From NCBI GenBank assembly GCA_948567375.1, contig OX419761.1, positions 9,710,243 through 9,774,242 of the forward strand: a DNA stretch of 64,000 nt, written 5' to 3'. The DNA comes from Lunularia cruciata (taxonomy: Eukaryota > Streptophyta > Marchantiopsida > Lunulariales > Lunulariaceae). The first letter of the stretch is position 1; each line of letters begins with the position of its first letter. Shown piece by piece: positions 6,558-62,582 of this stretch. Both the position numbers and the translations under genes were made by a program. The notes under the pieces are model-generated. The model had not been told where the DNA came from. It worked only from the letters and a program-made list of their open reading frames with translations, and searched no databases.

Positions 6558-6589
6558 ACAAGATATTACATGTAACATGTTCACATTAT

Positions 6590-17550: not shown

Positions 17551-18139
17551 GGTAAATTTGACGGATACCCTGTATTTCGCACTAATTTGAAAGATACTCG
17601 GACAAGTTCATATAATTGGAAATATACCCCATTCTTGTAAGACACCCCTCTTCCTGTAGAAATAAGACGTTCCTGTATGTATTAAGGGTTGCTTGGATCG
17701 CAACAGCTCCTCTGTTATGTTACGGGACATCCAAATGAGGTCCTTTGGGAACATCAAATGTGTGATGATCAAATTTGTATGCTTCACCCCTCTCTTTTGC
17801 CTTCATCAGGAAGTCCCGTCGTCTTCAAATAAAACAGTAGGTACTCGTTACAAGAGCAGAGATTGGCATTCACTTGTAAGATTACCGTCAGGACTTCTCT
17901 TGCTGCATTAGAATCTCCTCAAAGCAGATGGCAGTGACTACGCTTGTTGGAGCAGAGGACCTCGTTTTGTAATCCAAACAACCCTTAACACATACAGGAA
18001 CATCTTACTTAGGGCTGGGCTGCGTCTTACAGGCGCAAGGTGAAGAGGAGATTGTCTTACAAAGGAATACTTCCAAGTATTTAAACTTGTAGTATTTGTT
18101 TCAAATTAGTGCAAAATATAGGTATCTTCCAAATTTTCC
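17551..18139. mobile_element. 589-bp element with long terminal inverted repeats
   Basis: The left arm (17551 to about 17703) is complementary to the right arm (about 17967-18139). Matching blocks on the two arms include GCACTAATTTGAAA, TTGTAAGACA, GTTCCTGTATGT and AAGGGTTGYTTGGATYRCAA. The arms are 150-175 bases each with small indels, and about 260 bases lie between them. The termini begin GG and continue toward GATACC. No transposase is present, so it is a non-autonomous element of the MITE or MULE type; the arms are longer than those of most MITEs. No convincing target-site duplication was found. Confidence 0.8.
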
Positions 18140-18511
18140 ATTATTATTATTATATAAATTATAATTTTCATTAAATAAAAGAAATTATATTTGCACAAGT
18201 ATGAATATAGAAGTATTAGATCCACATCATAAGAAAATATTGACATCACCCAACCCAATGCATCCAAATTTTTGGTCAAATGGTGAACTGTATGTCACTT
18301 AAAAAAAACCTTACATGATTCAATGATTTTTAATAAAAAGGTGTATGACTCTTACATTAATATAGATTCAAATGTAACTAGAATGATTGACTATTAAATT
18401 TATTATTTAGTTCAAAATAAAATAATTTTTGAGATTCGAATTTTAACTTAGTTATTCAGTACTTTTACTGATGTAAGTTTTATTTGTTAAAAAGTTTAGA
18501 ATATAACTAAA
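18140..18511. other. Very AT-rich stretch left of the plastid insert
   Basis: No coding sequence. The composition grades into the plastid-derived block that follows, so part of this may be plastid intergenic DNA too, but nothing in it identifies a plastid locus. Confidence 0.35.
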
Positions 18512-18524
18512 TTATAAATAAACT

Positions 18525-18682
18525 AAATTTCCTAGTATCATACTTAAAATAGCTAAATTTTTTAAAATAATTTTCCATTCATCTGGTGGAAAGCCAAATA
18601 AAATATTAAAAATTCTAGCAGCTAAAGCTAATCCAGCTATTTTTGAAGTAACAGAAAGAAGAGCAACAACTGGGGTAGGTGA
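18525..18682 (-). pseudogene. ndhB: ndhB exon 2 fragment (plastid NDH subunit 2)
   Basis: About 53 codons read [17 protein letters not shown], then [20 protein letters not shown] and [11 protein letters not shown], the well-conserved beginning of ndhB exon 2. NdhB is a membrane subunit of the chloroplast NAD(P)H dehydrogenase-like complex. The exon starts exactly where the land-plant ndhB intron ends (before Ser-Pro-Thr-Pro). After GNL the match stops abruptly, so the rest of the exon is missing. The SKIAGLAL and EWKI wording, as far as I can judge, is closer to bryophyte ndhB than to seed-plant versions. Pinaceae and gnetophyte plastomes lack intact ndh genes. Confidence 0.88.
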
Positions 18683-18757
18683 GTTAGAGTCTAAAAATTT
18701 GTTACTTTTTGTCTCATTCAAAACCGTGCATGAGATTTTAATCTCACATGGCTCCTA
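18683..18757 (-). other. 3' end of the ndhB group II intron, domain V hairpin
   Basis: Read on the minus strand, 18721-18755 forms GGAGCCATGTGAGATT, a four-base AAAA-type turn region and AATCTCATGCACGGTTT, which is the conserved domain V of organellar group II introns. The remaining bases up to 18683 would be domain VI and the 3' splice site. Its position directly before the ndhB exon supports both calls. Domain V is the catalytic hairpin of the self-splicing intron; here it is only a relic in nuclear DNA. Confidence 0.8.
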
Positions 18758-19551
18758 AGTTATTTAAATTTATTTAAAGTTATTTAAAACTTTTGAATAA
18801 TAATAAAAAATTTATAACTTTCCTTGTGTATGTATTATTGAAAACAAATTAAAATTAAAAATCTTTTTGAAGGATCCTTAGATTTTAATTATTTTTTTAT
18901 CAAAATTTTATTCCGTTCTCAATAGTTATTAATTTGGTTTGTTTTAAGAATATTATTTGTTGATTAGCAGTTATTTTTAAAAATTTATAATTTTGAAGAA
19001 TAAAAACTAAGTAAAAAGAGTATTGATTAATCAAATTTTTAATGAAAATTCTCCTCAATATTTTTTGACTTTTTAAATAATATTTATTTTTTATATAAAA
19101 ATAAATATTCTAATTTTTTCGTTATTTATTTATTTATTTTATAAAGATTTTATTTTCATTTTAGTGAAAAATATTTATATGTTAAATTTCTATTGAGTCT
19201 TTCATTTAAAAACATTAAATACTTTAATTTATAAAACAAATCACACTCATACCTATATATATATTTATATATGTAACAAGTAAATTCAATTTTTTCATTG
19301 CTTTATTATAAAAAATAAATCCATCTATTTAATAAATAATATTATTTAATATTAATTTTTTTATTTCGAATTTAAATAAGTTAGTAAAATAAGATAAGTA
19401 TTAATAATATTTAAATAGTTTTTTAGTGTATAATATATATAAATTAGTTTATAATTATCAATTTATTCATTTAATATAAATTATTTTGTTCTTACAATCT
19501 CATTACCAACTAATTTTCTATTTTGTGAAATATTTTTTTTTCGCTTTTGGC

Positions 19552-19644
19552 ATTTCTACACTTGTTGCTAAAAATATCAAAAATATTACTCAAATTATTG
19601 GTCCAGTAATAGATGTTGCTTTTCTCCACGTAAAATGCCTACTC
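19552..19644 (+). pseudogene. atpB: atpB N-terminal fragment (plastid ATP synthase beta)
   Basis: The frame reads GISTLVAKNIKNITQIIGP and then VIDVAF, the N-terminal region of the plastid ATP synthase beta subunit. One base later the frame slips: adding back one base would give the expected PP-KMP continuation, so there is a one-base loss near 19622. After the KMP region the match is lost. Only about 30 codons are present, so it is a truncated plastid-derived pseudogene. Confidence 0.8.
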
Positions 19645-19650
19645 GTAGAA

Positions 19651-20464
19651 ATACTACTATAAATCAATTTAAAATTTATATCTTTACAAATTTAAAATTT
19701 GTAAACTAATTATATAAAAATATACTATTAAAAACATTAAATATGTTTATTTCCAAGAATTTACGAATAATCTTGAGATTCATAAGACAAACTAGCAATG
19801 CATCGCATGGGCACCAAAATAGTATTTAATTCACTGCCACCTATCCATTAATGTCACACAACTTTCGACCCATCTTTCCTCCTCGAATATCAATGTAGCA
19901 TACCTTTAACGGTACCCTTTTAAGTACAATACAGGTCAGATACCGGTCCGACAAGAGGTAAAACATAAGTAAGGCCCACCATAAAGTGTATAGTTCGTGT
20001 GAATTTGTTTTGCAGTTGGTCGAGAGATGATATGTCCTCCCACAGCACTTGATTTCGTCCTGGAAGAATTGACTTCCGGTTCTCCAAGGACTTCCTCATA
20101 AGGTTCGCAGAGCGAGGAATCTGCTCCTCAGGTGGGTCCGTCGACTTGACCAGATTTTGACTACGCAATAGATTCTGAAGAATGTGTGTTGAGGTTGAAA
20201 GATGTAAGGAAGCATTATTATAAATGCTTTGCGGTTAGTAATGGTACGAGCTGTGATAGAACCAAACAAAACACTTCCAAAGTCTTCCAAAGTCCCTACA
20301 ATTGCAGACTGTAGACTTCTCTTCAATCTTGCTCCCCTCTAGAACACCAGCCTTGGCTCTTCAGCTCGCTCCTCGGCCATCTCCACCTCAGGTAATTCCA
20401 AATATTGAGCATCTCCTCCCTCCATGTGTTCAATAGCCTCATGGAACTCTTGATCATCTTCCTC
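19651..20464. other. Sequence without a recognised gene
   Basis: AT-rich up to about 19790, then more balanced and single-copy-looking to 20340. Minus-strand open stretches (19920-20168, 20096-20326) overlap in different frames and match nothing I know. From 20339 the acidic relic described separately begins. Confidence 0.35.
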
Positions 20465-21544: not shown

Positions 21545-21996
21545 TAATCCTTGGTCTTTGAAAAATCAAACTCTCGCTTCAGCCCATGATTCTAACTCTT
21601 CAAGAAAACTCTTAAGAGAGAGAAGATAATGATTTAGCATTGCAGAATTTTCTCGATGAGGTTGTGATTTTATACTTCTATGAATCTTGGTAATTCTTCA
21701 GCCAAACTACAATTGCAACTCACAAATTTTGTGTGTCTTGCTCTTATCACTCTCAATTTTATCCTACTCCAAAAGTAGCCATTTTCCTTGAACATACTTT
21801 CTTGATTTGTTTGGCCCAAGGAGAAGGTGTTTTGGTTTCTTTGGATAAGGTTGACCACTTTGATGCAAAGTATGCTTACTTTGGGTCTACAACCTTTTAA
21901 GTCCAATCTGAGTCCTTCTTCTTTTGACACAAAGTAGACTTCTTCAAGTCAAATCCAAACACACTATTCTTCTCTTTCCTTCTCCATTTGGCTTTG
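21545..21996 (+). repeat. Dispersed repeat X, copy 2
   Basis: Aligns by eye over about 450 bases with 31852-32365, from TTTGAAAAATCAAA through CACTCTCAATTTTATCC and AAGTAGCCATTTTC to CTTCTCCATTTGGCTT. The A-rich terminal tract and ATGTGGGTA seen in other copies are absent because the LTR-type repeat of the next element starts here, which suggests that the latter inserted into or recombined with repeat X. Confidence 0.7.
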
Positions 21997-22647
21997 TTGT
22001 GCATATATACATCGCTACACAACATACATCGCTGTCAACATCACACACTATAGAAGCACAACTCACACATAACTCAAACATGGACTCTCAAGTGCCACAA
22101 TAATCAGTTTGTTCACACAACTCGAATCACAGTCAATCAGATCAGTACTTGATCTATCACTCAATAATCTACCAACAATTGGGCACTGATTATAGTCAAA
22201 CCACATCCATTCTAGCTAGGAGAATCCAAGTGATGCTCATTGGCCTCTGTCCACCATAGCCAAGAACTTGAAGGCTCAACATTAGAGAAGTGAGCTCTCT
22301 AGAGCTGCACTTTGAAAGTATACCCCCTAGTCTCCAACCCTAACAGTCCCGCTGATGGCACATCAGACGGTGCAAATAGTGCTAAGTGATGGTGGGCCTT
22401 ACTATGTAGTCAGTACTCCAAGCACAAAATCTGACAGGCAACATGTAGTCTATGAGTAACTACCAAAATACTCTTGACTACCAACACTATTACTCCAAAG
22501 TCTGAGCAATCTAGGTGTGATGCTAAAAATGGCATGACAACTATTGTGCATATATACATTGCTACACAACATACATCACTGTCAACATCACACACTATAG
22601 AAGCACAACTCACACATAAGTCATACATGGACTCTCAAGTGCCACAA
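21997..22647 (-). repeat. 3' terminal LTR region (A - core - A)
   Basis: A core of about 440 bases (22101-22540) is shared with 28531-28980, 31361-31791 and, in opposite orientation, 58928-59382. It begins TGTCATGCC on the minus strand. On both sides sits a direct repeat of about 100 bases (21997-22100 and 22543-22648) beginning TTGTGGCACTTGAGAG on the minus strand. A purine-rich tract ends immediately before the upstream 100-base unit, so the 3' LTR may begin there with TGTGGCAC and end in ACA near 21997, giving about 650 bases. The 5' copies lack the flanking units, so the true LTR limits are unresolved. Confidence 0.75.
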
Positions 22648-22648
22648 T

Positions 22649-22660
22649 CACTCCCCTAGC
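22649..22660 (-). promoter_or_regulatory. Probable polypurine tract
   Basis: On the minus strand the sequence GCTAGGGGAGTGA runs directly into TTGTGGCAC at the edge of the terminal repeat. A purine run at this point primes plus-strand DNA synthesis in LTR retrotransposons. The assignment rests on position and composition only. Confidence 0.5.
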
Positions 22661-22822
22661 TGGTGGTTAGGTCCCTCTAACTCCAAATAGCCATCTACTC
22701 CAAGTAAATGGTATATCTTATGGTGGGCAAAAGATCAAGTGGCTGGGGACTATCAAGCCCCATCGTTAGTCGCATGTCTACATTTTATAACATATAAAGG
22801 ATGAACTAGCTATAAGTCAAGT

Positions 22823-22957
22823 ACATCTAGGATATAACCACTGTCCCTAAGGAACCACCAAAAGGGGATGAGTCATACATGCCATATGCCATACTCTCAA
22901 ATAGCTATCACACACTAACATAGTAGCACCTCCACCAAAAGAGTCGCATAACATACA
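22823..22957 (-). pseudogene. PHD-type C4HC3 zinc finger at the end of pol
   Basis: After the integrase tail the frame reads LRCMLCDSF, ATMLVCDSY, WHMAC, then HPLLVVP, a stop, GQW and YPRC. The spacing is C-x2-C-x11-C-x2-[C]-x4-H-x2-C-x14-[C]-x2-C, which is the canonical C4HC3 PHD pattern, with the aromatic Trp before His also conserved. Two ligand positions are Tyr (TAT for TGT), each a single G-to-A change, and one stop interrupts the domain. PHD fingers commonly read the H3 tail. Chromoviral integrases carry a chromodomain at the comparable place, so a targeting role is a reasonable inference. Alternatives such as a RING finger fit the spacing less well. Confidence 0.75.
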
Positions 22958-24010
22958 CCGCAAGCCTACATGTACAAGTACCAAGCTTGGGTCCAAAGTA
23001 CCATCAATGTTTGGGAGGTGGCACGGCACACAATTGCACACATGATCCTTCCAAACAACACCATCATGTCCTTCCAACACAAGGATTCTAGGTGGCCGCA
23101 AAACCTCATGCACCCTCAAGATAGTGCGGCTTGTAGAAACATCAAGTGTCGTTGGTGCTATGTGCTGTAGATATACAAAATCACCCCGATTAAACTGTTA
23201 GATGAGGGTCTATAACCTCCTCCTTGAAAAGTAGCATAGCATAAGGTATCCCCATGATGAGCAATCACCAAGTTCTCAAGGGCCATAGGCATCACTCTTT
23301 GAAAGATGTATGCCCGTTGAGAACATGTGCTCATCCATACATCGAGATCATCCAAGTCCAACACTACAATAATATCTCAATGAATGGCTGTAGGTAAATT
23401 TGGATCTTGTCCATAAAGTAGAAAGCAAGGAGAGAAGGATACTAAGGAAACTTGCCAATTGAACTGATAGCCCATGGCCAACCAAGGTAACTAGAGATCC
23501 CAATCTCCCAAGTGGCCTCTCTGCAAACCATACTTTCACAATCCTCTCTTCACTATTTGAACCACTCTCTTTGCTAAGCCATCTGCCTTAGGTGATCTCG
23601 GGAGGTAGTACAATGATCAATCAAAGCCTTGTCACACAAGATCTAAAATTCTCCCAAGAACTCTATACCTTGATCAGTCAAAACCTCCAATGGTGCACCA
23701 AAATGACTAAGAACCCAATCTAGGAATGAGTAAGCCATCCCTCACCGGACTTTTCAAGAAGTGCAACCAATTCAATCCACTTGGAGAAGTGCTCCACCAT
23801 CACCAAGATATACCAATGATGTCTCACAATCAACAATAAAGGTTTAGTGAAGTCCAAAATCCAATGGAAACTCAACCCCATGATAGGTAATGGGTGTAAC
23901 TATGGCATAGAAGCATTAAATGATGCTCTAACTTGGTCATAAACCACACATCTTGCAAAAAATTGTTGTACAATAGTATGCATATTGCACCACCAATAAT
24001 AAATCTAGAG
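22958..24010 (-). pseudogene. Integrase relic with long C-terminal region
   Basis: Catalytic-core landmarks on the minus strand are YILVMVEHFSKWIELVAL near 23820-23770, TDQGIEFLGEF with the second catalytic Asp at 23675-23673, then CDKALIDH and TSRDH. Downstream are KYGLQRGHLGDWDL, LDLDDLDVW, RVMPMALENLVIAHHGDTL and ATFQGGGYRP (23364-23158), followed by LVLEGHDGVVWKDHV and PCHLPNIDGT just before the PHD finger. The HHCC zinc region near 23990 is hard to follow. Integrase inserts the cDNA into the host genome. Stops and frame changes make it non-functional. The RVMPMALENLVIAHH block marks the Ty3/gypsy type that I associate with streptophyte algae and early land plants. Confidence 0.85.
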
Positions 24011-24470
24011 TAAGCTATATGTACACTATCTATCTATGTAATCTATAAGTACACTTTACTCCAAAATGTCCTAGCTCCTCATGAGCATGATGGACCAATT
24101 GTGGTCTCTAAGATGGAAGTGGTACTACTCTCACTCTACCATCCTCCCATACACAAAGAGGTGTTTTCCCTCCTATCTAAACAATCTGGCTTGCTAAAGA
24201 ACACAGTCTCTCTCCTTGGCCCCAATTGTGCCACCCACAACACCAATGCAAAGATAGTCTATCATTAAGAGATCATCATGAATGTCTTGCTGAACTGTAC
24301 CACTATCTCCACTCTTTGGATATATGATATCAATAACTCCTCTTGTATATACTGAGAGAGATACCACCAAAGCCTCAAAAAATATATAGAGAAAGGTAGA
24401 TGAAAGCCAACTTGGCACCATCTCCTCATCTATCTCACCATGCCAATGTGCCTCGGTCTGATTCTGTTGG
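24011..24470. other. Spacer between RNase H and integrase of the DNMT element
   Basis: No domain is recognisable. The minus-strand open stretch 24194-24421 is unidentified. In related elements this interval holds the region between RNase H and the integrase zinc-binding domain. Confidence 0.4.
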
Positions 24471-25020
24471 TTGGGTCATGGGTTTCTACTCAACCCATCT
24501 GCATCACAATTCACCATTTCATGTCTATGAATAACCATGAAATCATACTTCTATAAAATCATAACACATCATGCAAGCTTCCTTGAAAGCTTGTTGGACT
24601 CCATCAACCACTTCAATGGCTGATGATCAATGATGAGAGTAACGGGGTTACCAAATAGGTAACATAAAAATGTGCTATTCCTTATACTATTACCAAGCAC
24701 TCTCCCTCATATGAACTATACTTTACCTCCACTAAAATTTTGGAGCAACTAGCATAGGCGCTACCACTAGCATAGACTAGTATAGCTACCATAAACTCCT
24801 TCCTCTCATCATCATGTTGGGTGAGCACTTCTCCAAGCTCCAACATAATTCAATCAGTGTGAACCTAAAATTGTGGTCCTCTGATCAATCTTCTCAAAAT
24901 AGGAGCAGATGTCAACCTCTCCTTGAGCTCTACAAAAGCTCTCTCTTACGCATCTCCCCAACACCACTCTTGTGTAAGCTTGGTCAACTTCATCAAGGCC
25001 TTGGCAATGGCAATAAATCC
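24471..25020 (-). pseudogene. RNase H relic of the DNMT element
   Basis: The minus strand shows KALMKLTKLTQEWCWGDA, ERAFVELKERLTSAPILR, then degenerate RNase H with VHTD at the first catalytic Asp, GEVLTQHDDERKEF, YSSYEGECL, LIIDHQPLKWLMESNKLS and finally NCDADGLSRNP near 24500-24475. These blocks are the standard connection and RNase H of Ty3/gypsy pol. Several frame changes and stops are present. Confidence 0.85.
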
Positions 25021-25985
25021 TCTAATATAGCAGTGATAGAAGTTTTCCAACCCAAGGAATGCTTGCACTCTGCTCACATCTGCTCACTCTACTCACATGT
25101 ATAGATTGAGAAATACATGCAATAGCCTCCACCTTGGTTTTCTGAACACTAAGTCCTCCAAGGTAGATAATATGACCCAAACACTCAACTTGGTCATGAA
25201 AGAACCTACACTCCCCAAGATGTAATTTGTGTCCATGAGATCTCAACCTCTCAAACACCTCCAACAAATATCTCTCATGCTCCTCCACCGTATTGCTATA
25301 GACCAAAATGTCATCAATATAGCACCGAGCAAACCCAATCCAGCTAGAATCCTATCCATGATCCTTAGGAACTCAACAAGAGTGTTCTTTAACCCAAATG
25401 GTAAGAACCTCCATTGATATACTTAACTTGCTCATGAAAGAACCTACACTTCCCAAGATGTAATTTATGTCCATGAGATCTCAACCTCTCAAACACCTCC
25501 AACAATTGTCTCTCATGCTCCTCCACAATAGTGCTATAGACCAAAATATCATCAATATAGCATTGAGCAAAATCTAATCCAGCTAGGATCCTATCCATGA
25601 CCCTTTGGAATCTGGCAAGAGCATTCTTTAACCCAAGCAATAAGAACCTCCATTGATGTAATACATCCTTAACGTGAGGATTGATAGCCCAAAATGTTCT
25701 CTTGGACTTATCCTCCTCCTTGATCAGCAATTGATGATATACTGCTCAAAGATCCAAAGTATTGAAGACCTTTGCATGCCCAATTGCATCAAAGATCACA
25801 TTTGGTGTAGGCATGACATACAGATCAGCCTTAGTTTTTTAGTTGATGTGACAATAATCTCCACATATTTCCCTATTTATGTAGTTGTCATGTATATCCT
25901 TCTTGGTTGGCATTATTGTAGCTGATGCATACTCTCCATGTGAAATCTCTACCAAACTAGCCTCAAAAAGGTCTCTACTTTGGCT
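25021..25985 (-). pseudogene. Reverse transcriptase relic of the DNMT element
   Basis: Starting near 25980 the minus strand reads ASATIMPTKKD, then ICGDYCHIN, KTKADLYVMPTP, VFNTLDL, HQLLIKEEDKSK, LLLGLKNALARFQRVMD and the catalytic YIDDILVYS (YIDD at 25559-25548). The palm continues as VFERLRSHGHKLH and KCRFFH. A second copy of the palm segment follows because of an internal duplication, and LGHIIYLGGLSVQKTKVEAI then continues to the thumb. Catalytic Asp pair present in both copies at DNA level, but stops upstream inactivate the gene. Confidence 0.92.
25187..25660. repeat. Tandem duplication, 237-bp unit, inside RT
   Basis: 25187-25423 and 25424-25660 are copies of one another at roughly 90 percent identity by eye, starting AACTTGSTCATGAAAGAACC. 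The period is 237 bases, exactly 79 codons, so the frame is kept. Each unit encodes the YIDD catalytic strand and the following helix. The divergence shows that the duplication is not very recent. Confidence 0.9.
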
Positions 25986-26569
25986 GTAAATCAATGCTCT
26001 CTCCACATCACTATATCGATAAGGACATCAACAAATTGGTGTATTGCTAGTCAGCTCAATCCAAATACCAAGTCCCTTTAGACCACCCAAATCCTTCATA
26101 TTGAAAGTAAAACAACTTCAAGAAGATCTAGCTCTAGTTCTTGAAGATCTAGCTCTTCAAGAACCTCCAAACTCTTTGTCTTTCTCCTCTTGTAAGCTTG
26201 GATCTGGCTCCCAAGTATCCACTATAACTATCATAGGAGTGGAAGACATACTAACTGGCTACTACACTAGGCCCTTGAGAGCAGTAGTTTCATGCTTCCA
26301 ACCACTAGAAGTCCCAACCTCAGTGTGAAAAACTCCCTTTGATCTTGTTGCAAGATCTATACGTCCTCTAGTTGCATCCCAAGTAGACCAAGAGTGTAAT
26401 CTAAGTAGACCATGCTCACTTGGATGAACTCCAAGTACACCACTCTCCCTAGTAGCCACTGGCTATGTCCCAAGAATACCTTGTCCATTCGGTCCATTGC
26501 CCCCAACATGTGCCTTAATCATCTTGATAGGCACAGAGCTCACAAGTGTCCGAGTGGTGATACCTATCA
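25986..26569 (-). pseudogene. Linker between DNA methyltransferase and RT
   Basis: On the minus strand the methyltransferase frame continues as LGLAKQRMMHLIG and IKMIKAHVGGNGPNGQG, then open stretch 26459-26262 with DLATRSKGVF. No domain is recognisable before RT begins near 25980. It appears to be part of the same polyprotein, presumably a spacer. Confidence 0.45.
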
Positions 26570-27590
26570 AGTGCATCATACGTTGCTTTGCCAAGCCAAG
26601 GCTTGCAATCCAAGTCAAACAGTTCAGGTCCATAGCTTGACCTAACAATTGATGCTTGGATGCCTTTGACACTATTGGAACAACAATAATGCCGGTGCAA
26701 AATCCCATCACTCGCTCTCTCTCATCGGTGTTGGGCTCCACCAACTACTATAATTGTGAGTCTCAAACCAGTCCAAGATCTACCTCTCAAAAAGCATGGA
26801 AGCTTGGGAAACTCATACGTGTAGGAAAAGTAGCTCAAGGCTGTACAACTAGGTTCACCATTGCCATAGGTGACCTATCAATCACTACCACCATCTAAAA
26901 CTAATACCCAACATCCAAGATATCATCAACAATGACATGGTCTAGTCGTTGAATCCTATCATAAGCATGTTGTAGAACCTCTTTAGGTAAGAGGTTCATC
27001 CATCAAAGACAAAGATGATGAGCCCGTGATCCCACTTTGGCTGCATCTAACATCACGATAGGTTCCATCCAAGAATGGACCTAATGTGTACTTGCCACTA
27101 TTTGGGTGCATGAATCACCCATCAAAGGGATGTTCTCCAAAATGTAAGTTAGAGAAATAGACTGATGAACTTGGAGATGTGATAGTATTTGTAACATCTC
27201 CCAAAATGCACTAGAATGGAGATCTTGATGACCCAAACCTCGGCCACCCATGCGTGTAAATCCTTGACATGGCCATCCAAAAATCACCAAATGAGTGGGA
27301 CCATGTCTCTCTAGATTCTACACCACCAATATGGAAATGTGTATTGGTAGGATCTTATGGTAACCCTTGACTACTAATATTTGTAATAACTCAAGATACC
27401 CATAGAACAAGTGTGCAACATGATGTAGAGATACTTGCCTAGTAGTCTCATCTCTCTCCATGTACAAGTACCTTTATACTTGTATACCCACATGTAGTAC
27501 CGTAACTAGTCCAATGCTAATTCCACCAAACAACTCCAATAGACATACTCCCTTTATTGGATACTGCCGAACAATAAGTGTAAAATCTAG
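26570..27590 (-). pseudogene. Cytosine-5 DNA methyltransferase domain inside pol
   Basis: One minus-strand frame of about 340 codons shows C5-methyltransferase motifs in order: motif I LLELFGGISIG at about 27542-27510, IFGWPCQGF with the catalytic Cys codon at 27269-27267 (motif IV), YILENIPL with Glu-Asn at 27137-27132 (motif VI), VMLDAAKVGSRAHH (motif VIII), a target-recognition stretch with FPTRMSFPSFHAF, EPNTDERERVMGF (motif IX region) and LLGQAMDLNCLTW (motif X). The enzyme family transfers a methyl group from S-adenosylmethionine to cytosine. About ten stops but no frameshift break it; several are TGA where Arg is expected, for example after HAF and DLGLV. It lies between protease and RT. 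The motif VIII and X wording resembles DNMT3/DRM-like and retroelement-borne enzymes more than bacterial ones, judged by eye. Confidence 0.9.
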
Positions 27591-28430
27591 AGGTGTCAAG
27601 GTAATTGACTCTAGAGGCTTCTTCACACTCCTTCCCTCACACCTCCCTTACATTGGTCTCATGGTGGTTCAAAGGCTCCATTCCAAGCCTATTGCACCAA
27701 TTGATCTGCATGTTGCTGCAATGCCTTCTCTAAACTCCACAAAGGAACATCCAAGGTGGATGGAATGATACCACTTGTACTCCAAATCCAAGTCATCTCC
27801 TTTGGTACTGGAGTATCCTCTACATGAGCGTTCCCCTCCAATAAGTCACCAGGCCAAGTAATAGAACCATTGAAAGCTGAAATTGAAGCCACCATGGTCT
27901 TGGACTCTAGTGAGCCAAGATTACCACTACTGAAGCTTACACGTAGGTGACATAACCATCCCTCACCAAACTGTCAACTTAGTCTATAGGAGGCTATCTC
28001 CTCCCAATAATCAATGCTGAAACCCATGCGGTACAACACTACTCTCCCAACTAACACATCATATGACTCATCTATGGTGACAATAGCCTCAACTCTCACC
28101 ATAAAGCTGTCAGTCTAATAACTAGGCTGAATTTAAACAACAAGCTCTCCACATGTGATGTATTGTGTAGAACCATCCCTTAGAGATGTCTAGATCTAAT
28201 GTGGACATCTCTCCACATTGGTCTTCGGTAACTCTAGATCAACAATTGTAGCCTTCCCCAACATAAGGGCTATGCACTAGAGTCTAGTAAGACCCTCTAT
28301 GGTGTATAGACCTTCCTTGAAGGTCCCACCAAACAAAAGATATCCCTTTGGTTATCCCATAAGACATCCAAGTGTAAACCGCACTCGCTCAAAGGCCGGT
28401 CTAGTTGGTAACTCCAATCTAGCCTTTTGT
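27591..28430 (-). pseudogene. Protease end and pol N-terminal linker of the DNMT element
   Basis: On the minus strand a broken frame carries KATIVDLELPKTNVE, then MVRVEAIVTIDESYDVLVG, RVVLYRMGFSIDYWEEIA and later VASISAFNGSITW, DVPLWSLEKALQQHADQLVQ and AWNGAFEPP. The YDVLVGR-VLY-GF block fits the C-terminal end of a retropepsin fold, where an (I/L)LG motif precedes the final strands. The remaining part seems to be a family-specific linker leading into the methyltransferase. A frameshift near 27590 separates the two frames. The protease active site should be further upstream; see the gag entry. Confidence 0.55.
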
Positions 28431-28980
28431 TCTTATATACATCGCTACACAACATACATCGCTGTCAACATCATACACTATAGAAGCACAACTCACACAT
28501 AAGTCATACATAGGCTGTAAAGTGCCACAATAATCAGATTGTTTACAACTCTTGAATCCACTCAACTTAGATCAGTACTTGATCTGTCACTCTATGAACT
28601 GCCAACAATTGGGCATTGATTACAGTCAAGCCATACCCACTTTAGCTAAAAGAATCTAGGTGATGCTTGCCAGCCTCTGTCCACCATAGCTAGGAACTCG
28701 AAGGCTCAACATCAAAGAAGTGGGCTCTCTGGAGCTGCACTTTGAAAGTATACCCATAGATTTGAGCTAGGTCTAAAACCCTAATGGTCCCGTTGTTGGC
28801 ACAATTGACGGTGCAAACGGTGCAAAGTAATGCTGAGCCCCACCATGAAGTAAGTACCCTGAACACAAAATCTGACAGTCAGAAAGTAGTCTTTGAGAAA
28901 CTATTGAAATAACTCTAACTACTATCACTGGAACTCTAGTGTCCGAGCAATGTAGATGTAACACTACAAATGGCGTGACA
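28431..28980 (-). repeat. Internal LTR copy between gag and protease
   Basis: 28531-28980 matches the LTR core (starts TGTCACGCC on the minus strand) and 28431-28530 matches the 100-base flanking unit on its downstream side only. It separates gag from protease of what otherwise reads as one element, so it is a nested solo LTR of the same family or the scar of recombination between two tandem elements. No target-site duplication is evident. Confidence 0.8.
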
Positions 28981-28995
28981 AGCTGTTGCTACCTA

Positions 28996-31023
28996 TCATA
29001 AACCACTAGTTGCTAAGTGGATCCCATGCTCCACAACCAAGTTAGCCCCACTATCAACCCCCTCTACTCTAGTAGTAGGGACCACATCATCCTTACTCTC
29101 ACAAAGCTCGGTAGCCAACCGGAACACTATCATTGGGTCAACTTCCAAGGTAAACATGTCACTTGTTGAGCATAAAGGAAAGTGCATAATCAACTAAGCC
29201 ACTCCCAATATCAAGCTAGACTCAATCAATGTAGTAGTAGGTGGCTGACAAGTAGATAGTCCATCATGTACCTCATCACCACCTACCACACCTGCATTAA
29301 GACATGTAGCCATGGATGTTGTCTACAATGCCTCAAAGAGTGTAAAAGATTGGGGAAGTCTGACCTATCTACCAACCTCTCATCTCAATGGGTCCAACTC
29401 CACTAATTCTCCTTTAGGCTTTGGAACACATACTGCATTCATAGTCACTATGGCAAATGCATCTACTTGTGTTGCTCCACACATGAAGTCTAAGATATCT
29501 CTATCACCCGCATATGAGATAGAAGCCTCAACACCCAAAACTGATCTCCTTTGAGCTATGGCCATGCTAGCCAATCTTTGCTTCAATTGCTCAATCCAAG
29601 TAGCCATGGCTGTATTAGAAGTAAGGGTAGGTACAACACCCTTACTAGATGTGGATCTTCTATCACCACCTCTACCACCTCATCCTCCATGACCTAGAGC
29701 TCCTCTGCCACCTACCATAATAGCTCTACCACTTTGTAACTCCATGTGTAGGTCAAAGCATCAATCACTAGTGTGACCAAATCTATGGCAATGCTCACAC
29801 TATCTTTGTGTTGGTTGTGATGCACCAGAGGTATCAGGTCCGCTGCCCTGAGTGCACTCTCTCCTATGGTGAGGTCCAACACAAGTCCAACAAGCAACAC
29901 CACCACTCATTGGCTATTGTTGACCCAAAAATGAAGATATAGGTTATAGTCCTAGCTATAGTAGGCCCTCCACTTGCTCCATAGGGTCTAGGTTGTCCAC
30001 CTTGTCCTTGGAAACCAACATGGCGTGGTGCACTCTACTACACTCTAGAAGAAGGATAAGTTATAGATGAGGTCTCCCTACCAAAGCCAAATGTCACTAC
30101 TCTCTCTTCCACCATGTTGAGCTCAATATGCTCAACCAAACCAAAGACCACTACCAAAGTAGGCAAAGTAACCTATAATAATGTAGCATTACAGCCTCTA
30201 CATCACAACTCCTTGTCCAATATCCCATGCCAAAACTAGACTGCTTGGATCTCAATAACTCCCTCAATAAAGTTGATCAACTGACTCATGCAAATGTATG
30301 CCTCACGTAGGCTCTCTCTAACCTTTTGTTGGAACTCCTACAAGCTCCTCAACTTGTCAATCCTCACTCCGGTAGTTCTACTTCAAACACTAGAAGAACT
30401 CCATCATGAGGTTAAACCCCGGAATTACACCACCTCTTATAGTAGTACCTCCACTCATAGTAGCACCATCTCCAAGAGATCCAAGAGAGCTAGAACTTGT
30501 GGGTACAACCGATCCCCTAGAAACCGAGCCTGAAGTGATGAAGATATAGTCCAGAGATCAATAATATCTACATAGTTTAATATCCTCCAAGTGAGCTCTC
30601 CTGCACTCATGGTAGTCATCTATTGGTGGACCTTCCAAGTATTGAAACAAACCCCTTCCATGCCATGAAGGGTGTGAGCAAAGTCATGTTCTGCATTTAT
30701 TGCAAATCACATCAACTATCAAACTCATGGATGAAGTTATCCAACTCAATGGTACCCACTATACTTGAGTAATGCTTGGGGCCTTTGGAGGCCCCATAAA
30801 TCTTGTCCATGTCCCATAATGATGGTGTGGACACACCAAATGCACTCTCAACTCTTGCATCAAACTCCAACTCAAAGTCAATGTACTCTCTCACTAGGAC
30901 TTGAGATACAAGCCAATATTGAGCACCACTCTGGGTAAACTCACTACATAATGCAACGCTATCTCTTATGGAATCCCCAAAGAACTCCATTATGACAAAG
31001 TAACCGGAAACTGCAACCCACAA
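28996..31023 (-). pseudogene. gag relic of the DNMT element
   Basis: The minus strand reads YIDFELEFDARVESAFG, LWDMDKIYGASKG and TIELDNFIHEF at the N-terminal part (31023-30712), then zinc knuckles CWTCVGPHHRREC and CEHCHRFGHTSD near 29892-29755, then RLASMAIAQRR (29607-29380) and SDMFTLEVDP (29193-28996). The same order with closely similar words occurs on the plus strand at 60789-62582. A DSGAN motif near 29055-29041 could be the protease active site (Asp-Ser-Gly), which would place the internal LTR inside the protease; this is uncertain. Gag forms the particle and binds RNA. Confidence 0.85.
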
Positions 31024-31360
31024 TCATAAGTACCTCACCAAGTGCCAACACAACCAAGTGCCAACGTACCAACCAAACGTCACCCACTAATGTAGCTCTA
31101 ACTATGACAACTATAGTTGGAGAAAGGTAACCTATAACCTGCCATCATAACATGCACTCTCATTGTCTGCAAGTCATCACTTCTTGCCTTAGATTATGTA
31201 AATCCTTAAAGTTGGCTGACCGCCAAATCCTCCACTAAATCTTCATTCAAGCCAAATTGAAAATTTGGACCACAATCAAGCTACCAACAATTTGCAATGC
31301 TTGGAGATACCACCAATACCTTCAGTCCTTGCAACCAATTTCCTCTTGAATTGACTTCTC
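31024..31360 (-). other. Leader between 5' LTR and gag of the DNMT element
   Basis: Directly after the LTR end the minus strand begins GAGAAGTCAATTC and later contains ATTGGTGGTATCTCCAAGC, which is also found after the plus-strand LTR near 59430. The TGGTATC word resembles the start of a tRNA-iMet primer-binding site but lies too far from the LTR end, so I do not call a primer-binding site. Confidence 0.5.
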
Positions 31361-31791
31361 TGATGTAATCAATTTGTTTACACAACTCAAATCACACTCA
31401 ATCATATTAGTACTTGATTTGTCACTCAATAATCTACCAAAAATTGGGTACTTATTATAGTTGAGCCACGTCCACTTTAGCAAAGAGAATATAGATGACA
31501 CTCACCGGCCTCTATCTACCATAACTAGGAACTTGAAGGCTTAATATTAAAGAAGTGAGCTCTTTGGAGCTACACTTTGAAAGTATACCCCTTGTCTCCA
31601 ACCCTAATGGTCTTGCTGATGGCATCTAGTGGTGCAAATGGTGTTAAGTGACGGTGGGCCCTACCATGTAGTTAGTACCCCAAACAAAAAATCTGACCGT
31701 CAATAAGTAGTATGAGTAATTACTTCTAACTATCAACACTACTACTCCAGAGTGTAAGCAAGCTAGATGCAATGCTATAAATGGCATGACA
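31361..31791 (-). repeat. 5' LTR of the DNMT element
   Basis: Begins TGTCATGCC on the minus strand at 31791 and ends TGATTACATCA at 31361, a TG...CA structure of 431 bases. It has the same two ends as 58928-59382. Upstream it abuts a fragment of repeat X. It lacks the 100-base flanking unit found with the copies at 22 and 28.5 kb. Confidence 0.85.
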
Positions 31792-32365
31792 ACTTCAATT
31801 TGGCCTCAACAATACACTTCTTTAAAACTCATCAAAAACAAAAATGTGGGTACCAAAGTGTTTGAAAAATCAAATCCTTGCCTTGGCTTGTGATTCTTAC
31901 TCCTTGAAGACAACTCTTAAGTGGGACAAGATAACAATTCAACATTGCAAATTTGCTAATGTCAATCCAAAATTTTCTCAGAGTCATGATTTTATACTTC
32001 TACAATTTTTGGTCATTCTTTAGTCAAACTTCAATTGAAACTCACAAATTCTAGAAATCCTGCTCCTATCACTCTCAATTTTATCCAACTCCCAAAGTAG
32101 CCATTTTCTTTGAACATACCTTCTTGATTTATTTGGCATGAGGGCAAGTTGTTATAGTTTCTTTGGATTGGATCTAGCACTCTAATGCAAAGTATCCTTT
32201 CACCCCGTAAGTGTGATCTAAGTCCTTCTTTTTCTAAAACAAAGTTGACTTCCTCAGGTCGGATCCACACACATGATTCTTCTCTTTTCTTCTCCATTTG
32301 GCTTAAATTTGGTTTCAACAACACACTTCTTCTTAGAACTCATAAAAAAAAACAATGTGGGTACA
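31792..32365 (+). repeat. Dispersed repeat X, copies 3 (end fragment) and 4 (full)
   Basis: 31792-31850 is the terminal piece of repeat X, ending in the A-rich tract and AATGTGGGTACC. It is followed at once by a full copy (about 31852-32365) that again ends AACAATGTGGGTAC. The direct succession of an end fragment and a full copy means that the repeat spans about 515 bases from one ATGTGGGTA to the next, which would fit an LTR starting TGTGGGTA or a tandem unit. Confidence 0.7.
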
Positions 32366-33799: not shown

Positions 33800-35045
33800 C
33801 AACAAATGCTTGTGCAAGAAGAACTGGCCTGTTTTGATTCTTCTCTGCCCTTCCTGCTTCTTCCTTTGATCGCTCACTGTCACACACACTCTTCTTTGAT
33901 CCTTCTCCTCTCCTTTCTCTGCCCTTCTTGTTTCTTCCTTCAATCCTGTCTGATAAAATCTGTCTTTGTTTTCTGTCCAAACTCTTTGCCCTTTTGATTT
34001 CTTCCTTTCTCTTGATCCTTCATTAAAAACCTTCCCTTTTGAAACCTAAACTCCCTATTTTCTTTGTTAGTTCCACCTGCCTTTCTTTCTCTCTGCTGAA
34101 CTCTGCCCTCGATGGTTTTTCTTGTTCTCTTGTTCTCCTGATTTTTCTTCTAAGCACAACTAGTTCCACTTGCCTTTCTTTCTCTCTGCTGAACTTTGCA
34201 CTCAATGGTTTTCCTTGTTCTCCTAAATTTGCTTCTAAACACAACACTCAATGAAGATTGTCACTAAACCACTCTCTATTGAAGATTCACCATATTTTTA
34301 TGTCTTACTTCTTGCATCACACCCCAAAACAATTCAGCAGACCAAATAGCATTGCTAGGTCCTAGTCGTAGTAAGATTATGCTTTGCTATTACTTTCAGA
34401 TTTCTCACCTTCAGCTCCTTCACTGACTCCGTAATCTTTCACTCTCCTTTCCTTTTTCACTATCCTTCCCTTTCACTACCTCTGTATTTGATCACTCTAA
34501 TTTGTTTTTCACTATCCTTCCCTATCACTACCATTGTATTTTATCACTCCTTTCTTTTTTCTCAATCACTCTCCTCTCTCTTTTTCCTACCAATTCCTTT
34601 GCTCCTTTACTGCCTCTGCCAACCAATCTTCACTGTTTCTTTTCCTTTCCTTCACTGTAACCTCCTTTGATCCTTCCAGCCTATTCCTTTGCTGTCACTT
34701 CCTTCGATCCTTCCCTATCTATTCCTTTGATCCTTCGCTTCCTTCAATCCTTCCCTGTCTATCCTTTGATCCTTCACTATCTATTCCTTTGATTCTTCAC
34801 TACCTCTACCACAGATTCTTCATTGTTTTCTTTCCTTCTCTTCACTATCACCTCCTTCAATCCTTCCAGCCTATTCCTTTGGTGTCACTTCCTTTGATCC
34901 TTCCCTGTCTATTCCTTTGATCCTTCACTTCCTTTGATCCTCCCTATCTATTCCTTCGATCCTTCATTGTCTATTCCTTTGATCCTTCCCTGTCTATTCC
35001 TTTGATTCTTCACTGCCTCTACCAAAGATTCTTCACTATTTTCTT
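33800..35045. repeat. CT-rich minisatellite region
   Basis: A strongly C+T-rich plus strand made of short repeated phrases. 34069-34161 and 34162-34250 are a 93-base tandem pair. From about 34480 to 35045 the phrase TATTCCTTTGATCCTTC and variants (CTGTCTATTCCTTTGATCC, CACTACCTCTACC) occur many times at spacings of about 20-30 bases, with a larger duplication visible (34600-34700 against 34800-34890). Open frames here are only low-complexity products of the repeat. Confidence 0.85.
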
Positions 35046-58927: not shown

Positions 58928-59382
58928 TGTCACGCCATTTGTAGTGTCACATCTAGACATCTTGGACATTGGAGTTGCAATGATAGAAGTTAGAGGTATT
59001 TCAGCTGTTTCTCATAGGCTACTTTCCGATGGTCAGATTTTGTGTTTGGGGTATTGACTTCACGGTGGCGCCCACCGTCACTTTGCACTGTTCACACCAT
59101 TGAGTGTGCCATCAGTGGGACCGTTAGGGTTATAGACCTAGCTCGAGTCCAAGGGTATACTTGTGAAGTGTAGCTATAGAGAGCTGACTTCTTTGATGTT
59201 GAGCTTTTGAGTTCTTGGCTATGATAGACAAAGGCTGGTAAACGTCACTTGGATTCTTTTAGCTAGAGTGGGTGTGGCTTGACTATAATCAATGCCCAAT
59301 TTTTGGCAGTTTATAGAGTGACAAATCAAATACTAATTTGAGTTGAGTTGATTCAAGTGTTGTAAACAATTTGATTACATCA
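58928..59382 (+). repeat. LTR (TG...CA), plus strand
   Basis: Begins TGTCACGCCATTTGTAG and ends TTTGATTACATCA, 455 bases. It corresponds to the reverse complements of 31361-31791, 28531-28980 and 22101-22540. CATCA followed by GAGAAGT at the inner side is shared with the copy at 31361, which supports the LTR end at this point. Confidence 0.85.
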
Positions 59383-60788
59383 GAGAAGTGAAGTTAGGGA
59401 GAAATCAGGTGTAGAAACTTTGAGCATTGGTGGTATCTCCAAGCTTAGTGGATTGTTAGCATCTCAATTGAAGTTCAATTTTTCCTTGGTGTGAAGAAGC
59501 TCGTTGCTTGATGCAGATTTGGCAGTAAGGTAGATGGTATGCGGAAGTGCTAGCCAATTTTTGAGCAAATAAGAAACAATTTTTGAGCAGTGGTTGTGAT
59601 TTTGAGCTAAAGAGGTGAAAGCAAGACCAATTTGTTGGGAGTTGAGCTCAAAAAGTGATTTTGAAGGTGGAGTTGGGAACCCACCCCTATAAATTTGTGA
59701 TTTGGAGAAACTTGTTTTTTCAATTTGGCACAAGTGAAGAGTTACCAAAGGATTTGGCGGTCAGCCAACTTTAGGGTTTACATCAAATTTTATGTCTGAT
59801 TTTACGTCAGATTTTTGCTAGAGTTTATGTCAGATTTTGGCCTGATTTGGAGGAGTTTCACTAGCTGGCCAGATTTAGAGGAGTTTTGCAAGTTTGGAGG
59901 AGTTTTGCAAGTTTGAAGGAGTTTTGTAGATTTGGAGGAGTTTTGCTAGATTTGGAGAGGGTTCAAAGTAGCAAGAAGAAAGGCTTCATTTGGCTATGGG
60001 CTATGAAGGCCTAGAAGGGCCAGCATGCCAACTTGCTAGCGTGAGACTAGCTAGTTTAGAGTAGATCTTGGTCATTGTTTGACAAAATCTACCCATCCTG
60101 CTAGATTGTGCGCAATAGGGTTTGACCCCTAGATCTCTTGTTCCTAGACAGGTGCCCTTGCCAACTGGTCCATCCTCACTTGTTGTCCTAGAGATTGTGC
60201 CATTGTTATCTATACACTCGTAGCTTTGGCTAGGAGAGGCAATTTGATCCCATTCTTGGTGATCCTGATAGCTTAGGACATAAATAAAAACTTCTCTTAT
60301 GTCAAATAGTGGTAGAGTAAGTCTTGTATTGCTTTATGAGATGGAGGGTTTTTGTTTAGATTTCTTATGATTGGACCTTTCTATTCTTTACTTCATGTTT
60401 GTGCACCATGTTTGTGTGAGGTGCCCTGACTTTTGAGTGTTGGTGCTCTGGTGTGCTCTTGGTAGTGAGGCTGGAGTGATGACCAGTCAGACTACCTTTG
60501 TTTCTCTCCGATGAGGCAGGAAGTGATGACATGCAGACCATGATAGTGCATGTTGTGATGACAGGTCACAGGTTGTTCTTTCCCCTAGTGTAGTTATCTC
60601 AATTAGAGTTACATTAGTGGGTGGTGTTCTGTGGGTATTGGCACTTGGTGGTATTGGCACTTGGTGGAGTACTTGCGGTTGCGGTTTGTAGTTGCAATTT
60701 GTGGTTGTGGTTGCGGTTGCAATTGCAATTGCGGTTACTTTGTCACAACAGAGTTCTTGGGAGACTCTAGAGGAGATAGCCTTGCAAT
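59383..60788 (+). other. Leader region with short tandem repeats
   Basis: Untranslated leader of the element. At 59844-59960 a unit of about 20 bases (GATTTGGAGGAGTTTTGC) is repeated five times. At about 60640-60735 TTGGCACTTGGTGG is doubled and followed by a GGTTGC/GGTTGT/AATTGC hexamer-like array. No coding frame is recognisable before gag. The minus-strand open stretch at 59464-59748 is not a known protein. Confidence 0.7.
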
Positions 60789-62582
60789 ATGCAGCGGGTT
60801 TACTTGAAGTGGCACTCGGTATCTCAAGTTGTAGTTAGGGAGGAGATTGACTTTGAGTTGGAGTTCAACACAAGAGCTGAGTCAATTGAGAGTGCACTTG
60901 GCATGTCCGCACCGTTATTGTGGGACATGGATGAGATTTATGGGGCCTCCAAAGGCGCTAGGCATTACTTTGGTGCAATGGGTACCATTGAGTTGGATGA
61001 CTTTATCTAGGAGTTTGATAGTTGGTGTGATCTATAGTAGATGCGGAACCCAACTTTGTTTATACCCCTCATGGCATGGAAGGAGTTGTTTCAGCATTTG
61101 GAGGGTCCACTAATGGATGACTTCCATGAGTCCAGGAGAGTTCATGGAGGAGATTGAGTTATGGAGACGGTATTGGTCTCCAAACTATGTTTTTATCACT
61201 TAAAGCTTGGTTGCCAGGAGTAGATTGGTTGTACCCAAAAGTTCTAGCTCAAGTAGTGTTGGTGGAGCTAATGGAGGTACCACTACAGGAGGTGGTGTGG
61301 TACCAGGGTTTAACCCCATGGTAGAGTTCTTCCAGTGTTTGAGGTAGAACTACCAAGGAGTGCAGACTGACAAGCTGAGGTGCTAGGAGGAGTTCAAGTG
61401 GAAGGTTGTAGAGAGCCTATGCAAGGCATACACTTGCATGAGGCGGATGATCAATTTCACTCAGGGAGTTATTGAGGCCCAAGCAGTCCAGTTTTGGTAT
61501 GGGATACTGGATAGGGAGTTGCAACGTAGAGTTTGTGATGTTATGTTGTTACATGCTACTTTGCCTACTTTGGCAATGGTCTTTGGTTTGGTTGAGCGCA
61601 TTGAGCTCAACATGGTGGAGGAGAGAGTAGTGACATCTGGATTTGGTAGGAAGACCTCATCCATAGTTGTTACTTCTTCTAGAAATCAACAAAGTGCACC
61701 ATGCCTAGTTGGTTTTCAAGGACAATGCGGACAACCTAGGTCATATGGAGCAAGTGGGGGGCCTACTATAGTTAGACCCTTACCTTCATTTTTGGATCAA
61801 TAGCATCCAGTGAGTAGTGGTGTTGCTTGCTGGACTTGTGGTGGACCTCACTATAGGAGAGAGTGTACTTAGAGCAGCGGACCTAATACCTTTGGTGCAT
61901 CACAACCAACACAAAGGCAATGTGAGTATTGCCATAGATTTGGTCACACTAGTGACCGGTGCTTTGACCTACACTTAGAGTTACAGAGTGGTAGGGCTAC
62001 TATGGCAATTCATGGAGGACAAGGTGGTAGAGGTGGTGGTAGAGGATCTACACCTAGTAGAGGTGTAGGACCTGCCCTTACTTCTGATACAACTATGGCT
62101 GCTCGGATTGAGGAGTTGGAGCAAAGATTGGCTAGTATGGCCATTGCACAGAGGAGATCAGATTTGGGTGCTAAGGCTTCCACCCCATATGCTAGTGATA
62201 GAGATGCTTTAGACTTCATGTGCAAAGAAGCATAAGTGGATGCATATGCAATAGTGACTAGGAGTGCAGTTTGTGTTGTAGAGCCTACAAGAGCATCAGT
62301 GGAGTTGGATCCATAGAGAGGAGAGGTTGGAAGATAGGTCAGACTTCCCTAATCTTTCACACTATCTTAGGCAATGTAGGCAACATCCATGGCTCCTAGA
62401 AGTTCCAATGCAGGTGTTGTAGGTGGTGATGGGATGCATGATGGACTACCTTCTAGTCAACCACCTACCACTACATGGACTGAGTTGAGCACGATGTTTG
62501 GGGCGGCTCAGCTGATTATGCGGTGCCCTTCGTTTTCAGCTAGTGACATGTTTACATTAGGAGTTGATCCAACCCCGGTGTT
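60789..62582 (+). pseudogene. gag relic, plus-strand copy
   Basis: The frame opens with EIDFELEFNTRAESIE, LWDMDEIYGASKGARHY and GTIELDDFI, then after stops continues PGFNPMVEFFQCLR, EEFKWKVVESLCKAYTCM and a 121-codon open part (61438-61803) with LDRELQRRVCDVMLL. Zinc knuckles follow: CWTCGGPHYRREC (61828-61866) and CEYCHRFGHTSDRC (61921-61962, C-x2-C-x4-H-x4-C). A Gly/Arg-rich part, ARIEELEQRLASMAIAQRR and SDMFTLGVDP end the relic. Most of it stays in one frame with few stops, so this copy is less decayed than the minus-strand one. Confidence 0.88.

Follow-up and report, generated by a model that had tools for sequence, protein, structure and literature searches.

Does a single retrotransposon carry both an enzyme that writes DNA methylation and a module that reads histones, and are the two inherited together? 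The question is raised by a 64,000-nucleotide stretch of the liverwort Lunularia cruciata (GenBank assembly GCA_948567375.1, contig OX419761.1, positions 9,710,243 to 9,774,242 of the forward strand; hereafter the window). An earlier note on this DNA had described a Ty3/gypsy element at 21997..31791 that reads gag, protease, cytosine-5 methyltransferase, reverse transcriptase (RT), RNase H, integrase and PHD finger. We find that the element is a dead copy from an old Ty3/gypsy-type family in which a DNMT3-like methyltransferase (MTase) and a PHD finger are inherited together; of this anatomy and its inheritance in the family we are nearly certain. Methylation is normally suffered by mobile elements; this family brings its own methyltransferase and a likely histone reader.

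Domain order and decay of the window copy

The element is one insertion on the minus strand, running from 31791 down to 21995; it starts with TGTCATGCC and ends with GCACAACA. Its borders are defined by a dispersed repeat that it interrupts, the two parts of which match an intact copy elsewhere in the window. The order of domains along the minus strand was obtained by tblastn with 16 related proteins and is the order that the earlier note had read from the letters. That note named no strand; the tandem duplication in RT, the lone A.B repeat, the split-repeat ends and the second copy described below are additions to it. Collinearity extends to 15 of the 16 proteins, the exception being P0013, in which the MTase is placed after RNase H. 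The order protease-RT-RNase H-integrase, with a DDE integrase, is that of Ty3/gypsy elements, both in the collinear tblastn matches and in Pfam matches of two relatives, the protein P0016 and the contig L031. The parts of the element are as follows.

29098..30810, minus strand: gag with zinc knuckle, broken (tblastn with P0004 residues 1-554, P0002 and P0005)
27665..28423, minus strand: protease region (tblastn with P0004 residues 590-846)
27602-26292 by tblastn, 26496..27602 as a single frame with stops, minus strand: DNMT3-like C5 cytosine methyltransferase, PCQ and ENI motifs still legible
26262..26264, minus strand: TAG near where several gag-protease-MTase proteins of relatives end; the window reads TAG TAG CCA
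24988..26114, minus strand: reverse transcriptase, broken (Pfam RVT_1, E 1.8e-18; tblastn with P0008)
about 24547..24987, minus strand: RNase H (tblastn with P0014 residues 2-114 and onward, and P0008)
about 23203..24152, minus strand: DDE integrase with H2C2 zinc motif, split over frames (Pfam H2C2, E 4.3e-4, below its cut-off; tblastn with P0014 and P0016)
22820..22957, tblastn extent 23197-22820, minus strand: PHD finger at the integrase C-terminus (Pfam PF00628 and homologues)
21732..21994, resuming at 31794-31855, no strand assigned: flank, the dispersed repeat split by the element (repeat match, uninterrupted at 2772-3080)

The copy is dead: the MTase frame has 11 stops within its first 370 codons, the frame changes several times, and two of the eight PHD zinc ligands are lost. 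Eight of the 11 stops fall at positions where relatives most often have Gln, Arg or Trp, the pattern that C-to-T decay would leave. The gag region (29133-31189) matches a second copy in the window at 77.7% in DNA, the protease motif reads DSSA (DSGA or DTGA in relatives), and the RT region holds a 240-bp tandem duplication at 25183-25660. An Rfam scan gave no match reaching the gathering threshold.

A DNMT3-like methyltransferase

On the window copy, the Pfam DNA_methylase model scores 10.5 bits (E 0.41) against a cut-off of 22. Used as a protein query, the same stretch retrieved 13 proteins at E 5.7e-35 to 2.0e-117, with identities of 54% in Calypogeia fissa, 46-52% in Marchantia polymorpha (n = 8), 40% in Sphagnum fallax and 32-53% in the other three. 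The stretch comprising the integrase end and the PHD retrieved three proteins at E 3.4e-25 to 2.2e-44: P0014 (62% identity), Marchantia Mp_7g09570 (P0015, 63%) and P0016 (46%). Relatives at these E-values place the identity of both stretches beyond chance.

To assign a class, a profile of four MTases was compared with PDB, which gave 64 matches, the best 60 of them ranked. The first 29 of the best 60 are DNMT3A, DNMT3B or DNMT3C, with DNMT3A leading at E 2.3e-20; after them, within the same 60, come a chain named DNA methyltransferase (4onj), bacterial enzymes and DRM2. The hallmarks of a C5 methyltransferase of the DNMT3 class are present, namely the motif IV Cys, ENV in motif VI, and motifs I, VIII, IX and X, in the usual motif numbering. 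By sequence, the enzyme belongs to the DNMT3-like class. Pfam scans gave no ADD or PWWP match.

Could the MTase have been kept for an RNA target or a structural role, with chromatin work left to the PHD alone? We regard this as quite improbable. The motif IV Cys and the motif VI Glu-Asn are kept in every sequence without a gap there (gaps lie at motif IV in P0005, P0010, P0012 and P0015, and at motif VI too in P0015), PCQ and EN remain legible between the stops of the window copy, and DNMT2, the tRNA enzyme, scores far lower with the profile than DNMT3 does. The motif IV proline, however, is not always kept, as P0013, P0017 and P0018 read ECQ rather than PCQ, and the MTase domain of a Klebsormidium nitens element produced no DNA methylation when expressed in yeast, a result that its authors call inconclusive (de Mendoza et al. 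2018, PMC5890265).

A PHD finger at the end of the integrase

The PHD model (PF00628) scores 20.8 bits (E 3.8e-4) on the window copy against a cut-off of 24; six of the eight zinc ligands are kept, two are lost, and the domain contains one stop. The C4HC3 ligands are intact in all 10 relatives inspected (nine distinct), although this count is biased, because several PHD relatives were retrieved with queries that contained the PHD. Among the 13 proteins found by the MTase query alone, only P0013 extends to the integrase end, and it has the PHD.

When a profile of four PHDs was compared with PDB (108 matches, the best 60 ranked), the top of these 60 was made up of CHD4, KMT2C, DPF2, KMT2D, DPF3, ATXR5 and KAT6A, and PHF21A and KDM5B followed closely. 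Many members of this list bind histone H3 tails that lack methylation at lysine 4 (K4). Judged by this resemblance, the PHD of the element is likely a histone-tail reader.

Relatives that carry both domains

The pairing of MTase and PHD is no accident of this locus, because relatives in other organisms carry it too. A third protein search, with an alignment led by P0016 and scoring the 8000 candidates that had the most words in common with it, returned P0016, P0017 and P0018, the latter two from Closterium sp. NIES-53. According to Pfam, P0016 (1516 aa) is a single protein that reads MTase-RT-RNase H-H2C2-integrase-PHD. P0017 (1649 aa), also a single protein, reads RT-RNase H-MTase-H2C2-integrase-PHD; P0013 (1833 aa) shares this order, its MTase being recognised by homology rather than by Pfam, and shows a Tudor-like match, below cut-off, after the PHD. 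The gene model of P0015 holds MTase pieces, the integrase end and the PHD together, and in P0018 the MTase is joined to RT.

A further relative came from prokaryote genome contigs, where a scan with the integrase-PHD alignment confirmed five loci (L031-L035) of 108 candidate stretches. L031 (CADCWO010000201.1, isolate AVDCRST_MAG81, in whose name AVDCRST presumably stands for desert crust) reads as a circular contig of 9158 bp, because its 127-bp ends are identical. An open frame for gag-protease-MTase spans 3-3491 (continuing over the circle from 8582) and closes with TAG, beyond which RT-RNase H-integrase-PHD follows in the same frame at 3492-6635. The Pfam matches all lie above cut-off: DNA_methylase 6.8e-12, RVT_1 4.3e-31, rve 1.2e-13 and PHD 4.3e-10. 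Pfam thus scores DNA_methylase and PHD below cut-off on the window copy and above it on L031, and the claim that one element pairs the two domains holds in this contig and in the single proteins P0016, P0017 and P0013. The genomes to which L031-L035 are assigned are cyanobacterial, Mollicutes, Halanaerobiaceae and Halorubrum metagenome-assembled genomes; they look contaminated, because the elements in them are gypsy elements of eukaryote type with PHD fingers.

A chimera, in which the MTase or the PHD came from another element nested at this locus, is very improbable. The window is repeat-rich and one repeat is inserted inside the element (28980-28425); this insert, however, separates gag from protease, and coding goes on in frame past it. 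Within the MTase-PHD interval, a repeat search showed only the local tandem duplication in RT. The same order recurs in independent proteins and in L031, and since single proteins and an open-frame contig share it, both nested insertion and chance similarity were rejected. The earlier note had itself named nested insertion among the outcomes that would overturn its reading; P0016, P0017, P0013 and L031 exclude it.

The stop between the two halves of the L031 frame has the context TAG CAA TCA, which fits UAG-CAR-YYA, the leaky-stop pattern of tobacco mosaic virus. Seven proteins (P0001, P0002, P0003, P0004, P0006, P0007 and P0011) end soon after the MTase, as far as protein records, some of them partial, can tell. 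The frame that holds the MTase appears to vary: in L031 it is the one with gag and protease ahead of the TAG, and in P0016, P0018, P0005, P0008, P0010 and P0012 the MTase is joined to RT.

Small, midpoint-rooted trees were built for three domains. The integrase tree (nine rows, without the window, P0012 and P0015) separates P0014, P0016 and L031 (100/100) from P0017, P0013 and L032-L035 (100/100). The RT tree (10 rows, one of them an outgroup taken from the window) recovers the set of P0017, P0013 and L032-L035 at 88/87 and joins the window to Marchantia P0008 at 100/99; the remainder of the first set does not resolve. In the MTase tree, four of the six inner branches are weakly supported and P0016 sits on a long branch; its nine rows are the window, P0001, P0003, P0004, P0006, P0013, P0016, P0017 and L031, with P0002, P0005, P0007-P0012, P0015 and P0018 left out. 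Scans of IMG/VR with P0016 or A5 yielded no relative, and a scan with the MTase profile yielded 30 loci matching at 23-42%.

Split repeats at the ends

The ends of the element are split repeats, arranged A-coding-B-A-B, and not plain long terminal repeats (LTRs); the 3' arrangement is known from one copy.

31367..31791, minus strand: repeat A1, 5' end, followed by the leader and not by B (gapped match to A2, 80% over 442 bp; starts TGTCATGCC, ends ...TGATT)
22649..22657, minus strand: purine-rich tract AGGGGAGTG abutting B1, resembling a polypurine tract (L031 has a homologous run of tract, B and A)
22542..22648, minus strand: repeat B1 (96% to B2 over 105 bp)
22102..22539, minus strand: repeat A2 (repeat comparison)
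21995..22101, minus strand: repeat B2, the 3' end of the element (flank AAGC versus AAGT opposite)
28425..28980, minus strand: lone A.B repeat between gag and protease, solo-LTR-like (flanks AGCT / GGCT)

Repeat A is about 440 bp long and B 107 bp, and strong matches to B occur at only three places in the window. The junction of A with the leader, TTGATTACATCAGAGAAG, is the same in the element and in the second copy (58928 onward). Ty3/gypsy elements would have the same LTR at both ends; here the 5' end has A but no B in two copies, and B1-A2-B2 (22648-21995) forms the 3' end of one. Because these arrangements differ, we class the pol of the element as gypsy-type and its repeats as split, rather than as canonical LTRs. 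Canonical LTRs with a piece lost from the 5' copy are disfavoured, as the second copy shares the A-leader junction and L031 also has B after a purine tract. Two tandem elements sharing a middle repeat were rejected, as the residues on either side of the 28980-28425 repeat continue one protein, coding being resumed at the matching residue beyond it. The tract, B and the start of A align to L031 with a score of 67.5, versus 54 for the best of 500 first-order shuffles; L031 is circular and hence compatible with split repeats and plain LTRs alike.

The junction of B with A reads CACAATA-GT-TGTCATGCC in the window element (B2 itself ends CACAACA) and CACGACA-GC-TGTCACGG in L031; the L031 junction resembles unprocessed integrase ends, CA-NN-TG. 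Where A meets B, both at 22101 and within the lone copy, the junction is of one kind, CTGATT-ATTGTGGC, in which the end of A that faces the leader adjoins the end of B that faces the tract. This make-up suggests that complementary DNA (cDNA) ends were joined and then recut at the B/A junction. There are possible 4-bp target duplications, AAGT/AAGC outside the element and AGCT/GGCT at the lone copy, each with a chance probability of about 0.02, more than one register having been considered. Compared with the sequence expected of a tRNA primer site, nothing convincing follows A1, only ATCAGAG, without TGG.

The second copy and CpG content

58928..62572, plus strand: second copy (DNA match to the element), consisting of A, leader and gag, then interrupted by other sequence

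Beyond 62572 lies sequence with another gag-like zinc knuckle, CFLCGEKGHKASSCPL, at about 63280-63330.

If the family methylates itself, the element might be expected to stand out by loss of CpG. Within the window and in 3-kb bins, the observed/expected (o/e) CpG ratio of the element is 0.14-0.20, versus 0.05-0.23 in other CpG-poor stretches; three stretches (1-3, 15-21 and 48-57 kb) have ratios of 0.53-0.72. The element is thus no lower than other CpG-poor stretches of the window, and there is no element-specific CpG loss at this scale and hence no trace of self-methylation.

These values also bear on a rather unlikely alternative, in which the MTase mainly helps to silence fresh copies of its own element or limits how far the element spreads, sparing the host, with the PHD as a general chromatin anchor and no protection of cDNA. 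This possibility is raised in the discussion of de Mendoza et al., and CHH and CHG methylation was found on copies of KnitGypsy-Dnmt3, a gypsy element of K. nitens (PMC5890265). The CpG poverty of the element and much of its surroundings is as expected if they are methylated; this loss, however, is not specific to the element, and the position of the L031 MTase beside gag and protease points as easily to a role in the particle.

A proposed mechanism and its weight

How might such an element use the two domains? The first frame would yield gag-protease-MTase in bulk, and a few ribosomes would read through the TAG and add RT-RNase H-integrase-PHD. The MTase would be carried in the particle and methylate new cDNA or the fresh insert; in L031 it lies with gag and protease, so that each particle would probably contain many copies of the enzyme, acting at these stages. 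The PHD, which stands where chromoviruses have their chromodomain, would, judging by its position at the end of the integrase, tether that enzyme to H3 tails, probably unmethylated at lysine 4. To judge from the split repeats, the cDNA ends would be joined and the integrase would cut at the B/A junction. The MTase and PHD probably end up in different mature proteins, since in L031 the MTase lies before the TAG, the PHD lies at the far end of the frame, and the product contains a protease; 'joint' action of the two therefore likely need not mean one protein. The joint strategy of self-marking and targeting that the earlier note had proposed is plausible.

Several observations weigh against this reading. 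The window copy is too decayed to reach the Pfam cut-offs for MTase and PHD, and the second copy breaks off before both, so that in the window they are known from one copy. The CpG comparison and the yeast experiment described above belong here as well. The gene models P0005, P0008, P0010 and P0012 pass from MTase into RT without a stop, perhaps because they are spliced models. P0013 and P0017 carry the MTase between RNase H and integrase. Finally, in L033 and L034, which run from protease to PHD, a six-frame search gave no MTase match, although the profile used reaches 524 bits on L031. The two are inseparable in the RT and integrase trees and have the same PHD, L034 repeating L033. L032, which begins at RT, has no MTase match either, and L035 begins too late to tell. 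As L033 (and thus L034) has a PHD but no MTase that the profile detects, the two domains need not occur together and the PHD is independent of the MTase. By group, the MTase occupies the protease-RT interval in one, occupies the RNase H-integrase interval in P0013 and P0017 of the other, and is missing from L033. The simplest reading of the sequences would be that the PHD is old and constant, and that the MTase moved, was gained twice, or was lost in some members.

On balance, we consider it probable that the element is a dead copy of an old family inheriting both domains that worked by this mechanism as a whole. Taken separately, the PHD as an integration tether is a shade less secure than that; action of the MTase on element DNA we hold in even balance; and a joined-end intermediate in replication appears slightly more doubtful still. 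We also raise, tentatively and as the less likely case, a widespread and largely unreported gypsy-type lineage in liverworts, mosses and green algae, with a methylation writer in the particle and a histone reader on the integrase, that integrates from joined cDNA ends by means of a DDE integrase at a CA-NN-TG junction inside the repeat. If this is true, the element would arrive pre-methylated in chosen chromatin and bridge LTR- and DIRS-style replication. Relatives with open frames (L031 and the Marchantia proteins) make the retention of DNMT3 and reader-guided landing testable in a model plant.

Other features of the window

Two nearby copies of one dispersed repeat lie on either side of the element, at 21554-21994 and 31858-32304, with more matches at 2772-3080 and 38274-38469. 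At about 5850-6841 on the plus strand are remains of a different gypsy element (RVT_1 2.1e-9, RNase H 5.6e-8). An exon-like stretch at 55352-55495, plus strand, encodes a Rieske domain (6.4e-11) and resembles oxygenases such as dicamba O-demethylase; it is probably part of a host gene, since it sits in the CpG-rich region at 48-57 kb (o/e 0.55-0.72). In 2-kb bins, G+C content drops to 22.6% at 18001-20000, versus 35-45% in other bins, and an array of pyrimidine-rich repeats around TTCCTTTGATCCTTC occupies 34450-35050 on the plus strand.

Comparison with known systems

The earlier note had compared the element with MTase-bearing elements of charophyte algae, and the comparison is apt. KnitGypsy-Dnmt3 of Klebsormidium nitens is a Dnmt3-bearing gypsy element with DIRS-like repeats, and the ratio of nonsynonymous to synonymous substitution (Ka/Ks) of its MTase is below 0.2 (de Mendoza et al. 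2018, PMC5890265). It shares with the window element the gypsy type, the Dnmt3-class MTase and A-coding-B-A-B repeats (the window 3' end being known from one copy). On the other hand, PHD occurs zero times in the main text of PMC5890265, and the KnitGypsy-Dnmt3 MTase is in the Pol open reading frame, whereas that of L031 stands with gag and protease before the stop. No protein named K. nitens was among those returned by the three protein searches, and the comparison is by description. Some DNMT3 members have also been placed in Copia- and DIRS-type retrotransposons of streptophytes and dinoflagellates, in a passage of PMC12344493 that cites de Mendoza et al. Searches of the literature, with most subscription journals and bioRxiv outside their coverage, found no account of PHD and DNMT in one retroelement, nor of such elements in land plants, and none of the leaky-stop layout gag-protease-MTase/RT-RNase H-integrase-PHD. 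Thus, Dnmt3-bearing gypsy elements with DIRS-like repeats were already known; in the papers searched we found neither the PHD nor the leaky-stop layout, and no relatives from land plants.

As for the reader, chromoviruses are Ty3/gypsy elements whose integrase ends in a chromodomain, a module that reads histones. A probable reader module likewise ends the integrase in this family, but the PHD takes the place of the chromodomain, and Pfam gave no chromodomain match in P0013-P0017, L031-L033 or L035. In DNMT3A and DNMT3B, the enzyme is accompanied by the ADD domain, which recognises H3K4 when it is unmodified; the MTase class is that of this family, and the type of reader probably so, but in place of ADD and PWWP this family has a PHD, carried by the integrase. 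Capture of a PHD by mobile elements is itself no novelty, since it was reportedly described in CR1-like long interspersed nuclear elements by Kapitonov and Jurka in 2003. Ginger1 transposases, too, have a PHD beside a gypsy-like integrase; they belong to another class of element, and the portion of PMC2836005 covered here mentions no methyltransferase. Captured PHD fingers are thus what these elements and this family have in common.

The closest parallel for the ends is found in DIRS, PAT and Ngaro elements, which use a tyrosine recombinase and have split direct repeats of the form A-coding-B-A-B. The arrangement of DIRS repeats is given likewise in PMC5890265 (A-coding region-B-A-B), where SymbioDIRS-Dnmt3 is among the DIRS-type elements. 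The window element shares these split repeats. However, relatives including P0016 and L031 gave no match to the tyrosine recombinase model PF00589 in Pfam and matched rve and Integrase_H2C2 instead: this family has a DDE integrase, and the window element shows possible 4-bp target duplications. Split repeats combined with a DDE integrase bear on the kinship of LTR- and DIRS-type replication.

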